The notes under the pieces: model-generated | What the model was told of the DNA's origin: nothing | The model's database searches: none | Seen by the model: only the letters and a program-made list of their open reading frames with translations | Origin: Idiomarina aquatica | Lineage (GTDB): Bacteria; Pseudomonadota; Gammaproteobacteria; Enterobacterales; Alteromonadaceae | Length of the DNA stretch: 64,000 nt | Assembly: GCF_003987185.1 (NCBI RefSeq) | Contig: NZ_PIPS01000001.1 | Coordinates: 310,001 to 374,000, forward strand | Direction of reading: 5' to 3' | Made by a program: the position numbers and the translations under genes | In this document: positions 41,434 through 45,669 of the stretch, piece by piece | How positions within the stretch are numbered: the stretch's first letter is position 1 | Layout: each line of letters opens with the position of its first letter

Positions 41434-41462
41434 AAGCCGCTCCATCATCGAGCGGCTTTTTT
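41434..41462. terminator. Intrinsic terminator after ychF
   Basis: AAGCCGCTC (41434-41442) and GAGCGGCTT (41450-41458) form a 9-bp stem with a 7-base loop, followed by a T6 run on the plus strand. It ends 5 bases before the convergent haemoglobin gene stop and may partly serve both directions. Confidence 0.85.
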
Positions 41463-41466
41463 ATGC

Positions 41467-41871
41467 TCATTCAACAATGTCGTCATACATCGGTGCCAGC
41501 TTTGCCAGCAATTGATTCTGGGCAGCCACCGGTACCTCGTGCTTTTCCATCGCCACGATCAGGTGTTCCACCAACGCATTGAAGTCGGCGTGGGTAACGC
41601 CCATACCTTCATGAGACACACGCATGCTTTCGCCGCTGTACTCACAGGGGCCGCCAACCACGTTGCAGACCTGCTCGGTGATCAGTTGATGCACCCGCAT
41701 AATGTCTACCCCATCAAAGTGATGCACAATGCGTTCGTCACCGCCAACGCGGTACAGCATCTCTTCAACGATAGCCGAAATGCCTTGTTTTTGCCCCAGT
41801 TGGTCGTACAAACTCTGTGCCGATGCCAGTGGTGTCAGCAATAACGCGGCAGTTAACATCAGTGCTTTCAT
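41467..41871 (-). CDS. Exported group 1 truncated haemoglobin
   Basis: A 134-residue 2-on-2 globin with an N-terminal signal peptide (MKALMLTAALLLTPLASA, cut near residue 18), so it should act in the periplasm, unlike ordinary cytoplasmic truncated globins. Family features: LYDQLGQKQGI helix A, B10-type Tyr40 (EEMLYRVGGDERI), and proximal His87 in MRVSHEGMGVT. Cys69 and Cys76 lie in one loop and could form a disulfide. It is the last gene of the cupredoxin/GGDEF-EAL/DUF3034 run, 9 bases after the DUF3034 gene. Confidence 0.88.
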   Translation of the reverse strand: MKALMLTAALLLTPLASAQSLYDQLGQKQGISAIVEEMLYRVGGDERIVHHFDGVDIMRVHQLITEQVCNVVGGPCEYSGESMRVSHEGMGVTHADFNALVEHLIVAMEKHEVPVAAQNQLLAKLAPMYDDIVE

Positions 41872-41880
41872 AGCGTCTCC

Positions 41881-42726
41881 TTAAAATGCGGCCTGCAGTG
41901 ACAGATACCAACCGGTTTGATCATCGAGCCCGGCAATCGAGCCCAAATCGGTGTAGGCACCAACGATCGATACTCGCTTTGATGGAAAATAGGCGACAAA
42001 CACATCACGCCAGTCCTGCTCGTCGGCAAAGGATAAGTTGTCCGGCTTCTGTCGGTATTCAACGCCGACGGCCCAGTAGCGGTTGATAAAAGCCGCTACC
42101 GAAGCCTCGGCCACCCACTCTGCTGAATCGTCAACATCGCCGCCAAAGCCAAGCAAGCCGATTTGGTTAGCACGCGTTCGCCGCGCCGTGACATTGGCTA
42201 CCCAGGTTCGGTGAAAAGGCCCGTCCAGCCAGGCCTTGGCGGCGCTCAGGTAATAATCGGTATCGCTGTCTTCGGTGGCCCCCACCGCGGATGGCAGCGC
42301 AAAGCTCTGGTTGCTTTTGTGTTGTAACCCGACACTCACCTGCGGCAAGTTACCGTAGAGTAAATCGCCGAACAGCCGCGCTTTGACACCCAAAATATTC
42401 TGTTCTAATTCGCCGCCGATGGTCGACAGATCAAAGGTTTGTCTCGCATAGGACACTTCAACACGGTTGTTCCAGGATAAGCTCGCACCCTGTACGCTCA
42501 AGCGAAAGTCATCAACCGCCACTTCGCTGACATTAACCGTTGCCCCCCACTCGCCGACATCCGCGTAACTGCTTAACGTCGCCCAGGGCACAATGCCTCC
42601 ACCGCCGGCACCTTCGATGGTGCTGGCACCGCCGGTGGCGAGTAACTTTGAACCGCTGTCAGCAAAGCTGACACCGGGCACCAGTGTAAACGCCACCAAT
42701 ACCATGCCCGCCCGCCATTTATGCAT
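41881..42726 (-). CDS. DUF3034 family protein, probable outer-membrane beta barrel
   Basis: A 281-residue protein with a signal peptide (MHKWRAGMVLVAFTLVPGVSFA) and the family opening SKLLATGGASTIEGAGGGGIVPWA. The rest alternates hydrophobic and polar residues and ends in an aromatic GWYLSLQAAF, like an outer-membrane barrel. Function unknown. Start 42726 overlaps the GGDEF-EAL stop by 8 bases and has AAGGAGA upstream; a longer frame lies inside the neighbouring gene. Confidence 0.83.
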   Translation of the reverse strand: MHKWRAGMVLVAFTLVPGVSFADSGSKLLATGGASTIEGAGGGGIVPWATLSSYADVGEWGATVNVSEVAVDDFRLSVQGASLSWNNRVEVSYARQTFDLSTIGGELEQNILGVKARLFGDLLYGNLPQVSVGLQHKSNQSFALPSAVGATEDSDTDYYLSAAKAWLDGPFHRTWVANVTARRTRANQIGLLGFGGDVDDSAEWVAEASVAAFINRYWAVGVEYRQKPDNLSFADEQDWRDVFVAYFPSKRVSIVGAYTDLGSIAGLDDQTGWYLSLQAAF

Positions 42727-44995
42727 GAGCCTCTCCTTGTAAACGTTGCGCAAAATCAATTGCTGATATTGGTTTGCTGAAATAAAAACCTTGTAATTCA
42801 TCGCAGCCCTGCTGTTGCAGCCAGCGCCAGCTTGGTTCATCCTCGACCCCTTCGGCCACCACGTACAAACCCAGTTCGTGAGCCAATTGAATGGTCGAGC
42901 GGACAATGGATTGATCCACCGCACTGTCGGCTAACGGTTGGACAAAGGCACGGTCAATTTTAAGTTCGGTCACCGGCAACTGACGCATCTGCGCCAGCGA
43001 TGAATAGCCCGTGCCGTAGTCGTCTATGGATACGCCGTAGCCTTTATTGCGTAACCAGTTAAGACGGGCGATGGCGTTGTCTGGATCACTGACAATGGCA
43101 CTCTCGGTCACTTCCAGTACCAGATTGCGATTCAGTTGCGGGCGCTGCACCTCAAGATCGGCAATCAGCGCCAGAATCTCATCGCTGAGCAGGTCAACCG
43201 CCGACAAGTTCACACTGAGACTAAAGTGTTCACTGTCTACCGGCAGTTGCTCCAGCAGCTCAACCGCCCGTTCACAGACCCAGCGCGTCAATCGTTTTAT
43301 CAACCCTGACTGCTCAGCCAACGGAATGAACTCATCCGGCCCGACAAAACCCAATTGTTGGTTATGCCAGCGCAACAGCAGTTCAGCGCCTATCGTACGG
43401 CCACTGCGACAGTCAATTTTGGGCTGCAACAGCAGCGTCAGTTCATCGCGCGCCACTGCCTGCTGCAGTTGCTCAAGAATATGCAATTGACGCAAATGCT
43501 GTTCATCCAGGCCACTGCTGTAGCAATACAGAAAGGTTTGCTCGTGTTTAGCCTGCTGTGCGCTCACTTGAACCCGCCGCAGCAAGGTATCAAACTCGTC
43601 TCCCTGCTGCGGAAAGCGCACCACCCCACAGTGAAAACTGACCGGGTAGTCGCTTTCACCAACTTTTACCGGCGCTTGCAACTGCTCCAGCAAATCCTCG
43701 ACAAAGGCATCCTGTGCCGACTCGATGGGCTGCTTCAACACCAATGCAAACTCGTCGCCGCCGACCCTCGCCAGCAAACTGACGCCGTTAACGGAGCCGA
43801 GCCGGTTGGCAATCTGCCGCAGCACCTGATCACCCACCTGCTGCCCCAGGGTGTCATTTAAGCGTCGAAATTGATGGATATTAAGCAACAACAGACTTCC
43901 GGATTCCCCGGCCTGCAATTTCGCCTGTAACTGCTTCGCAAAATAGCGTCGGTTCGGCAGCGCGGTCAGTTGATCATGAGTGGCCTGGAAGGAAATTCGT
44001 TGCTCACGCTGCGAAATCGCATCCCGCATTGAATCAAAGGTCGTCGCCAGTTCACCGAATTCATCGCCGCGTTGCTCCAACCGTAATTTACTGTAGTCGC
44101 CGCGCTGCAATTGCTTGGCCGCTCGGGTCAGTTTGTCCAGCGGCCGCGATACACTGCGCGCCATCACCAGCGCCACCAAGGTTGCCAGCAACAATGCCAG
44201 TAGCGCAATGACGACCATTTGTAACTGCAGCCGCTCGAATTCCGCCATCGCCTCCGCCAGCGAGGCCGACAACAGAACATGCACGGTTTCATTATCGGCA
44301 GTAACCAATAGCGCTTCCTGCCCCACCAGTGACTGCTGTTGTAACCAATGTTCCACCGCGGTTGAAGTGGCCAGATTCTGTTGCAATTGCTGTTGCTGCT
44401 CTTCATTCAGGCTGGAAGCCAGTATGCCCTGCGTCGATTCCAGCCACAGACTGATGTCGGCGTTTGCCAGGCTCTGTAATTGCTGCGCTAACGCAGAATC
44501 AACGGCAAACCCCAGAGTTGCCCGCGCAATCAGTTGCGGCGCGTTCACCGGAACAGTAATCAGCTGGAACAATTGGCCTTCGATCAAGGCGAGCTGCTGA
44601 CGGCTGTCGTTTTGCGTGTTCTCAATCGTCGCCGCCGACAACGAATGGGTTGCGGCGATTTCACGCCCATCGGGCGCCCGTAACACCATTAACTCGGTAT
44701 CGATGCGTTCACCATGATTAACCAGCGCCGACACAATGGTGTCGCGATCACCGGTAGCCACCGCCCGTTTGAAGCCAAAATCGTCCGTTAATACTTCGGC
44801 CGCCTGTTTTAACAACGCACTGCGGTTGTCCAACAATTCACGAAACACCCGGTCACTGACGCTCAGCTCCTGCTGAATAGAACGCTGCACTTGTTGCTTT
44901 ACCGCAATGCCGATGGCCGTCAGTGACACCGTAATGGCACCGGCAACCAACAGCAGCAGAATAACGATCAGACGCGTACGAAAGCTGTTAATCAT
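42719..44995 (-). CDS. Membrane-bound GGDEF-EAL protein with periplasmic sensor domain
   Basis: A 758-residue c-di-GMP enzyme candidate. Helices at about 7-30 and 260-280 bracket a periplasmic sensor domain; a HAMP segment follows (278-330), then GGDEF and EAL. The signature GGDEF is intact at 412-416, but the first metal Asp of the usual D-x-D-x-F-K is Asn372 (LNIHQFR), so cyclase activity may be weak. The EAL domain has ELL (538-540) in place of EAL, with EVTE, DDYGTGYSS and EGVED kept, so hydrolysis is plausible. It overlaps the cupredoxin gene by 4 bases. Confidence 0.92.
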   Translation of the reverse strand: MINSFRTRLIVILLLLVAGAITVSLTAIGIAVKQQVQRSIQQELSVSDRVFRELLDNRSALLKQAAEVLTDDFGFKRAVATGDRDTIVSALVNHGERIDTELMVLRAPDGREIAATHSLSAATIENTQNDSRQQLALIEGQLFQLITVPVNAPQLIARATLGFAVDSALAQQLQSLANADISLWLESTQGILASSLNEEQQQQLQQNLATSTAVEHWLQQQSLVGQEALLVTADNETVHVLLSASLAEAMAEFERLQLQMVVIALLALLLATLVALVMARSVSRPLDKLTRAAKQLQRGDYSKLRLEQRGDEFGELATTFDSMRDAISQREQRISFQATHDQLTALPNRRYFAKQLQAKLQAGESGSLLLLNIHQFRRLNDTLGQQVGDQVLRQIANRLGSVNGVSLLARVGGDEFALVLKQPIESAQDAFVEDLLEQLQAPVKVGESDYPVSFHCGVVRFPQQGDEFDTLLRRVQVSAQQAKHEQTFLYCYSSGLDEQHLRQLHILEQLQQAVARDELTLLLQPKIDCRSGRTIGAELLLRWHNQQLGFVGPDEFIPLAEQSGLIKRLTRWVCERAVELLEQLPVDSEHFSLSVNLSAVDLLSDEILALIADLEVQRPQLNRNLVLEVTESAIVSDPDNAIARLNWLRNKGYGVSIDDYGTGYSSLAQMRQLPVTELKIDRAFVQPLADSAVDQSIVRSTIQLAHELGLYVVAEGVEDEPSWRWLQQQGCDELQGFYFSKPISAIDFAQRLQGEAHA

Positions 44996-45669
44996 TGATT
45001 ACCCGTGCGGTTAAAGCGTTGCTGTAAACGCGATTTTGGCGGCTCCGGCGGTGCCGGCGCCGTTACCTCAAGTTGTAATGTCTGCTGCTCAGTGGGATTA
45101 AGTTGCACCGACCGTGCGTGACTGAGATCAGCACCCTGCCACGGATGCCAGAGCGTCGCCGACACCGACGATGCCGCGGACTGAGCCAGACTCAGCCTGA
45201 TCTTGCCGCGCGGATCACTGACAAAGGCGGTGCGGCGGTCACTGATAACAATGTGGGCAATCATTTGGTCGTGAATATTGCAGCCCAGAGTGACCAGCCC
45301 CGGTTGCTCAAACCGCAGCGACGGACGCTCACCGTCCGCGTACAGTTTTAATTCAAACGGCTTTGGCTGTGAAAAGGAGTACACATGGTGGCGAATATTA
45401 TCGCTGTTCGGAAAGGTAATGGTACTGCCCGTCTTTACCGCCGTCATGAACGGCGTAAACTGACGATCAACCTGGTCAATGATGTGCGCCGATGCTTCAC
45501 TGCGAGCCGCTTCTGTTAACAGCCCATCATCAATCATCAACACTGCATTGGCGAGCGGTTGGCCCGTTTTATCGACAATATTAACGGTCATTTCGTTGGC
45601 AGCCGTCGCTGCCGCAACGGCGATACCGGAACAGGCCGTCAACACAATGAAAAAGTGGCGTAAGGTCAA
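44992..45669 (-). CDS. Periplasmic cupredoxin-like protein ('methylamine utilization' type)
   Basis: A 225-residue exported protein, signal peptide to about residue 24. A blue-copper-like pattern is visible: His94/His95 in NSDNIRHHVYSFS, then Cys130, His133 and Met136 in LGCNIHDQM, a plausible type 1 copper site. A Pro-rich tail ends the protein. Homologues are often labelled methylamine utilization proteins without evidence of that role. It is the first gene of the four-gene module and overlaps the GGDEF-EAL start by 4 bases, suggesting it feeds that sensor. Confidence 0.83.
   Translation of the reverse strand: MTLRHFFIVLTACSGIAVAAATAANEMTVNIVDKTGQPLANAVLMIDDGLLTEAARSEASAHIIDQVDRQFTPFMTAVKTGSTITFPNSDNIRHHVYSFSQPKPFELKLYADGERPSLRFEQPGLVTLGCNIHDQMIAHIVISDRRTAFVSDPRGKIRLSLAQSAASSVSATLWHPWQGADLSHARSVQLNPTEQQTLQLEVTAPAPPEPPKSRLQQRFNRTGNQ

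Follow-up and report, generated by a model that had tools for sequence, protein, structure and literature searches.

Among the systems closest to the one considered here, YfiBNR and HmsCDE each combine a membrane enzyme of cyclic dimeric guanosine monophosphate (c-di-GMP) metabolism with periplasmic partners and, through YfiB, with one in the outer membrane (PMC5550408, PMC4655355), and HmsC responds to the periplasmic redox state by way of disulfides (PMC5550408, PMC4655355, PMC8846402). The review PMC8846402 also reports that EAL proteins with a CSS motif carry a periplasmic cysteine pair thought to act as a redox switch, that sensing by the Cache-type c-di-GMP enzyme STM1987 needs the periplasmic binding protein ArtI, and that globins are linked to c-di-GMP enzymes as the sensor domain of globin-coupled diguanylate cyclases. 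Here we analyze four genes in a 64,000-nucleotide stretch of the Idiomarina aquatica genome (contig NZ_PIPS01000001.1, positions 310,001 to 374,000; hereafter the window) that encode an exported cupredoxin (CUP), an inner-membrane dCache_3-HAMP-GGDEF-EAL protein (DGC), a predicted outer-membrane barrel of the family DUF3034, and an exported truncated globin (GLB). We find that these genes form two separable modules, CUP-DGC and DUF3034-GLB; within the host family (Alteromonadaceae), strict inseparability holds for the latter pair only.

The resemblance to YfiBNR and HmsCDE is one of layout, a membrane c-di-GMP enzyme with envelope partners, and involves no homology comparison; in contrast to those systems, a cupredoxin and a globin would here take the periplasmic places and a barrel, in place of a lipoprotein, the outer-membrane one, and the EAL site is kept. 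DGC is a membrane EAL protein like those with the CSS motif, but its sensor domain resembles dCache_3, bears an invariant DFGF motif and gives no CSS-motif Pfam match. Whereas ArtI binds amino acids, the partner of DGC would be a cupredoxin encoded next door. GLB shares its fold family and haem histidine with group 1 truncated haemoglobins such as HbN and GlbN but differs from them in being exported, in having a cysteine pair and in lacking Tyr B10 or Gln E11; unlike the globin of the globin-coupled cyclases, it is a separate exported protein. The DUF3034 protein shares a 12-stranded barrel fold with FapF, KdgM and NanC by model comparison, without a sequence match. In line with a preliminary description of this locus, which knew of no function for the set, our literature search, covering few subscription papers, found no account of the four genes together. 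Papers on cupredoxins and c-di-GMP included none on such a module as judged by title or the start of the abstract; the available main text of the review PMC8846402 does not contain the terms cupredoxin, copper or outer membrane; and globin export is not mentioned in the available parts of PMC3770913 and PMC6450195, on truncated hemoglobin and c-di-GMP.

Recurrence of the four genes as two pairs

Using profiles built up from the four proteins of the window, we searched the open frames of 103 stretches of DNA, comprising the window, two named Idiomarina loci and the neighborhoods of 100 genomes with DUF3034. The genomes came from three overlapping draws, at the level of class (DUF3034 in 18 of 369 genomes), family (138 of 246) and phylum (39 of 398), which together held 183 different DUF3034 genomes; the neighborhood sample took 44 of the 45 outside the host family (a fragment in G207 was omitted) and 56 of the 138 within it. 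Two of the stretches are identical (L020 and L120), and another, L174, holds a DUF3034 remnant below profile detection. Of the 103 stretches, 97 contain GLB and 76 contain CUP, and 61 show all four genes contiguous in the order CUP-DGC-DUF3034-GLB. Outside the host family, 30 of the 44 loci hold all four genes inside a single ±7 kb stretch and 39 have GLB, these 44 including one locus with broken parts (L077) and one with DGC 1.7 kb away on the opposite strand (L097). The preliminary description held that a conserved set should be adjacent in other genomes as well, and adjacency is indeed common. In another class of the phylum, CUP-DGC and DUF3034-GLB occur as two divergent pairs in all six DUF3034 loci found; linkage that survives such rearrangement is evidence for shared function.

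The host family resolves how tightly each gene is bound to the others. A GLB match of at least 125 bits lies within 1 kb of DUF3034 in 137 of the 138 DUF3034 genomes and in none of the other 108, the next match among the 246 genomes scoring 89 bits; the sole DUF3034 genome lacking a strong GLB, G545, carries a 26-bit remnant. CUP is present in 200 of the 246 genomes (136 of 138 with DUF3034 versus 64 of 108 without). Sensor matches to DGC of at least 109 bits, a cut-off chosen after the list was seen and at which the scores show no clear gap, occur in 137 genomes (121 of 138 versus 16 of 108), and DGC lies no more than 5 kb from DUF3034 in 119 of the 121 genomes that have both. In two of the 16 genomes with a strong DGC and no DUF3034, CUP adjoins DGC (L184, L218). 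The proposal of a four-gene module was therefore right as to its recurrent order, but the unit divides into two pairs.

CUP is also found away from DUF3034. When 21 genomes, most of them without an adjacent CUP-DGC pair, were searched, 18 carried CUP; from 16 of these, 17 CUP places apart from DUF3034 were fetched, and DGC adjoins CUP in 14. We further inspected 37 CUP loci without DUF3034, a non-random set drawn partly from the match list and partly from genomes in which DUF3034-GLB stands alone or almost alone. CUP and DGC are joined in 13 of these by a second family of putative outer-membrane barrels (BB2), whose barrel nature was read by eye; nine have CUP-DGC without a recognized barrel, ten have CUP beside BB2, and five have neither DGC nor BB2. 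A Pfam scan of four BB2 members gave one match, to PF13505, below the cut-off, and nothing for the other three. Because CUP-DGC stands beside either BB2 or DUF3034, a transducer joined by a cupredoxin and a barrel is a recurring combination; seen more widely, a cupredoxin is combined with a membrane signal protein and a barrel-like protein, the two barrel partners being BB2 and DUF3034-globin.

Five of the ten loci with CUP beside BB2 show the two genes divergent with a redoxin gene near. In genus g314 (L176-L180), CUP adjoins the redoxin gene and a divergent BB2, apart from the DUF3034 locus; the redoxin identity in the five single-genus loci was read by eye and confirmed by Pfam in one. Another of the ten is L191 (4691-8212), where CUP lies between a chemoreceptor gene and BB2; here the cupredoxin-barrel pair may feed chemotaxis as well. 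In a tree of CUP sequences with weak support on 35 of its 73 inner branches, the 39 DUF3034-linked rows (a chosen subset) need six changes versus 25.7 in shuffles, few enough to indicate that CUP is grouped by partner. The DUF3034 loci seen in g314 (L153, L171) are without CUP, and the CUP that the genus keeps beside BB2 and the redoxin gene falls into a starred set of nine tree rows together with three DUF3034-linked ones; because of this place, the gene seems to have moved and not to have been lost.

Some DUF3034 loci depart from the common layout. Broken or fragmentary copies occur in L077 (where DGC is broken too), L173, G545:C1:36114-36251 and G678:C3:72638-73313, and reflect either occasional decay of the module or faulty assembly. 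In L076, L086 and L087, DUF3034 is found without a globin in the stretch and near genes that by eye encode sigma-54-type regulators; in L076 it also adjoins a flavoprotein whose translation, read by eye, resembles sulfide:quinone oxidoreductase. At L080 (8083-12543), another porin-like gene follows a divergent CUP and the gene of a large membrane signal protein; DUF3034 is divergent and a globin was not found.

Signatures of the four proteins

The Pfam matches in the run are Bac_globin (E-value 4.4e-14), DUF3034 (6.6e-108), EAL (1.7e-70), GGDEF (1.6e-33), HAMP (4.2e-14) and dCache_3 (1.5e-6). An NCBIfam scan returned no match for GLB or DUF3034, and for DGC no equivalog above its cut-off among the 25 best of 46 matches. 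The preliminary description assigned export signals to three products, and signal-like, hydrophobic N-termini can indeed be read by eye on the CUP, DUF3034 and GLB proteins of the window. A hydrophobicity count over relatives places a hydrophobic stretch before the mature part in 90 of 97 GLB, 75 of 76 CUP and 95 of 102 DUF3034 proteins, several of those without one having extended or cut frames.

The type-1 copper ligands of CUP are conserved almost without exception, with H94, C130 and H133 in 76 of 76 rows and M136 in 75 (one row being a duplicate). Its structure model (mean predicted local distance difference test, pLDDT, 94.3) has as nearest folds in Foldseek the cupredoxin domain of NirK, pseudoazurin and amicyanin, and matches the latter two across some 100 of its 200 residues. 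With this fold and a His-Cys-His-Met ligand set, CUP bears out its description as a blue-copper-like protein and is predicted to hold copper. It matches no Pfam family above cut-off, and an assignment as amicyanin (TIGR02657) was rejected at 13.4 bits against the 110.2 required. Among cupredoxins, electron carriers typically have a CxxHxxM site.

In DGC, 11 positions of the EAL domain, those of metal- and substrate-binding residues, are identical in 70 of 70 relatives, whereas the GGDEF motif is intact in 29 of the 70, the window protein included. Because the EAL positions are invariant and the GGDEF motif is mostly degenerate, DGC is probably a c-di-GMP phosphodiesterase; the family retains the residues of such an enzyme and does not, as a whole, retain the intact motif of a diguanylate cyclase. 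In most relatives the GGDEF domain is probably regulatory or residual and not constrained to synthesize. The initial view of a membrane c-di-GMP protein with a periplasmic sensor is thus upheld at the level of domains, but its output is refined, with breakdown likelier than synthesis. The sensor passes the dCache_3 model (PF14827) narrowly, at 28.5 bits against a cut-off of 25.7, and bears its invariant DFGF motif in an alignment of 25 sequences with ten invariant columns.

GLB matches Bac_globin at 53.1 bits (cut-off 21), and its best match in the Protein Data Bank is HbN (2e-24), through which the B10, E7 and E11 positions were named. The proximal (F8) histidine H87 is invariant in 97 of 97 relatives, as are C69, C76, G80 and M83, and the CD1 phenylalanine F52 is present in 95. 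GLB accordingly has the family match and the two residues that mark a group 1 truncated haemoglobin, and the periplasmic globin proposed earlier is supported by its export-like N-terminus and kept haem histidine. The distal pocket is apolar, with Leu, Ile, Val or Met at B10 (96 of 97), Leu, Phe, Val or Ile at E7 (97 of 97) and Leu, Ile, Phe or Met at E11 (97 of 97). In truncated haemoglobins, bound O2 is stabilized by a polar distal set of Tyr B10 with Gln E7 or E11, which GLB lacks, an absence that concerns O2 binding and not the fold family; in haem proteins generally, an apolar distal pocket favors nitric oxide (NO) or carbon monoxide (CO) over a stable O2 complex. Comparison with 13 weaker truncated-globin matches from the host family, taken as listed and hence non-random, led us to reject the apolar pocket as a mark specific to the module, since nine of the 13 controls also lack Tyr B10 with Gln E11 (four have both). 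None of the controls carries both cysteines, and in sequence it is the pair C69 and C76 that distinguishes GLB from them. A lipobox-like motif is found in 46 of the 97 GLB proteins, the window protein having no cysteine there. The GLB proteins of L101, L106, L112 and L117, which are in divergent arrangement, have a long N-terminal stretch with a VDPY...NAGA pattern ahead of the globin.

DUF3034 (PF11231) matches its Pfam model over the full length (positions 1-255 of 255) at 360.5 bits against a cut-off of 25, and the window protein is 85% identical to an I. seosinensis protein and 83% to an I. aquatica one. Its structure model has 12 strands (pLDDT 86.6), with FapF (Z 19.8; 2.8 Å over 213 residues), KdgM (18.1) and NanC (17.3) as structural neighbors, none of which appeared among the seven matches of a sequence search at E-values up to 1. 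Together with the signal-like N-terminus and a C-terminal phenylalanine, the strand count has the features expected of an outer-membrane barrel, and the model predicts a 12-stranded barrel of outer-membrane type, as had been guessed from the sequence. A glycine-rich stretch before the first strand, which is poorly modeled, holds five of the 17 invariant columns. The literature passages that we found contain no functional description of the family: as far as the available parts show, in a table of PMC4255298 DUF3034 labels a membrane protein of actinobacteria, and the legend to Figure 5 of the retron paper PMC12548924 sets it beside DUF3037 in what looks like a misprint for that name.

Layout of the locus

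The four genes run head to tail, as the preliminary description stated, with overlaps of 4 bases between CUP and DGC and 8 between DGC and DUF3034, and a gap of 9 before GLB. They are flanked by a ychF-like gene and a divergent fumarase-like gene (names given by eye) in a housekeeping stretch.

Table 1. Positions in the window of the four genes and of a neighboring stem-loop.
Feature	Coordinates	Strand	Remarks
CUP (exported cupredoxin)	45669..44992	minus	225 aa, TTG start
DGC (inner-membrane dCache_3-HAMP-GGDEF-EAL protein)	44995..42719	minus	758 aa
DUF3034 (exported, predicted 12-stranded outer-membrane barrel)	42726..41881	minus	281 aa, ATG at 42726
GLB (exported group 1 truncated globin)	41871..41467	minus	134 aa
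Stem-loop, 9 pairs, terminator-like	41434..41458	reported for the plus strand only	between convergent ends of GLB and ychF-like gene

By eye, the ATG that neighbors the TTG start of CUP at 45669 is not in frame. A longer DUF3034 open frame from 42924 extends back into DGC and was rejected as the start of the gene. The stem-loop is a weak call by itself, as the region holds three terminator-like sites versus a mean of 5.8 in shuffles. When the region upstream of CUP in the window is aligned with that of 11 close relatives (12 rows in all), the main feature beyond the coding start of the divergent fumarase-like gene is a short conserved GATCA.

A proposed metalloprotein sensor across the envelope and its rivals

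Protein distances offer a view of which products change together. Partial correlations over 58 thinned loci with all four genes, which do not amount to a significance test, are highest between DUF3034 and GLB (0.49, range 0.36-0.60), followed by the two halves of DGC (0.37). For CUP the values are 0.25 with the DGC sensor (0.13-0.37), 0.14 with GLB, 0.11 with DUF3034 and 0.08 with the EAL domain, and the CUP-sensor value exceeds the CUP-EAL value in 273 of 300 resamplings. This covariation, a weak test, fits a picture in which CUP would work with the DGC sensor and DUF3034 with GLB.

We suggest, at somewhat less than even chances, that the operon encodes an envelope-spanning metalloprotein sensor controlling c-di-GMP hydrolysis. 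DGC would read the periplasm from the inner membrane through its dCache_3-type domain and pass the signal by way of HAMP to the EAL phosphodiesterase. Exported CUP would be the periplasmic partner of the sensor domain; as a carrier of copper or of an electron, it would set DGC activity through its redox state or copper status. The DUF3034 barrel would lie in the outer membrane with GLB, perhaps a lipoprotein in many relatives, at its periplasmic side; GLB would bind haem in an apolar pocket, one that suits NO or CO better than a stable complex with O2. The state of CUP, and with it c-di-GMP, might then respond to a gas or redox-active compound that the barrel and the globin handle. As the distal pocket of GLB is apolar, we name NO as the first candidate for the signal, a doubtful one, with copper and the general redox state as the others.

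Several observations weigh against such a sensor. Seventeen of the 138 DUF3034 genomes lack a DGC sensor match of at least 109 bits. Conversely, of the 16 family genomes with a strong DGC but no DUF3034, 14 show none of the other parts in the stretch that was fetched, and in two further genomes that carry DUF3034 the DGC is unlinked to it; these solitary relatives indicate that the enzyme need not always have the three partners. DUF3034 occurs without CUP, DGC or GLB in four of the 103 stretches (two on contigs shorter than 9 kb), L080 is likewise without GLB, DUF3034-GLB stands alone in 19, and in three of the 21 genomes searched DUF3034-GLB is present although CUP gives no match at 1e-10. 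Covariation is modest in strength, and the partial correlation between DUF3034 and the EAL domain (0.34) is not predicted by a CUP-sensor and DUF3034-GLB picture. Upstream of CUP (76 loci, five shuffles), none of the consensus patterns for FNR/DNR, NsrR, Fur, sigma-E, CueR and LexA, nor one further pattern, is clearly enriched. Finally, as a possible counter-example, deletion of cdgD (orf02758) in Pseudoalteromonas marina ECSMB14103, which encodes a GGDEF-EAL-dCache_3 protein that may or may not be an orthologue of DGC, lowers c-di-GMP, the opposite of what loss of a phosphodiesterase would do (PMC11190208).

An alternative that we regard as improbable, yet as the strongest of three rivals, is a periplasmic pair of enzymes, in which GLB would consume NO or peroxide with CUP as electron donor, while DGC would adjust the biofilm state under the same stress through a ligand of its own. 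Both CUP and GLB keep their metal sites, the redoxin gene adjoins CUP in the five g314 loci, and cable bacteria have truncated-globin domains fused to periplasmic multihaem cytochromes, for which an oxygen-reducing role is proposed (PMC11976967). Against this arrangement, the distances of CUP track the DGC sensor over GLB (0.25 versus 0.14, with overlapping resampling ranges), and 22 of the 37 CUP loci lacking DUF3034 have CUP-DGC but no GLB.

We consider it less probable still that the module handles copper or haem, the barrel moving the metal or haem, CUP serving as periplasmic copper carrier, DGC reporting the copper load and the globin protecting or buffering haem or copper chemistry. The near-invariant copper ligands would suit this role, as would the presence of CUP without a globin at all 37 loci away from DUF3034, and PcoB, which transports copper, appears as a structural neighbor of DUF3034, but at Z 12.4 it ranks far under FapF. 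No CueR-like site is enriched upstream of CUP, however, the recurring companion is a globin, the CxxHxxM site is that of electron carriers, and no copper pump or multicopper oxidase was noticed among the neighbors inspected, which were not searched for them systematically.

Least likely of all, the proteins might merely share a condition such as low oxygen with no common pathway, DUF3034-GLB serving uptake or the stress response independently of c-di-GMP, a view to which the 19 stretches without CUP-DGC at the locus, the three of 21 such or similar genomes lacking a CUP match, the orphan DGC relatives and the absence of an enriched regulator site lend themselves, but which sits poorly with pairs that stay together across arrangements, the divergent one in another class included, and with the finding of CUP in 18 of 21 genomes mostly without adjacent CUP-DGC, 14 of the 17 fetched places being beside DGC.

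The proposed envelope-spanning sensor can be extended, speculatively, to a relay across the whole envelope: a barrel-docked periplasmic globin would pass a gas or electron signal to CUP and on to the sensor domain of a c-di-GMP phosphodiesterase, and exchangeable barrels, DUF3034-globin or BB2, would bring different inputs to the same CUP-enzyme core. Such a relay, which we think unlikely, would be, as far as our searches show, the first c-di-GMP system to read a haem or copper protein outside the cytoplasm.

Many periplasmic c-di-GMP sensors have no known input. For one widespread group of them, the module supplies a link to two metal proteins and a predicted outer-membrane barrel. It thereby offers concrete ligands to consider for sensors of the DGC type, namely NO, CO, O2, copper and the redox state, while DUF3034 gains a strict partner in GLB and a predicted fold. 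If the proposed sensor is correct, bacteria would choose between an attached and a free life by sensing the chemistry of haem or copper outside the cytoplasm.

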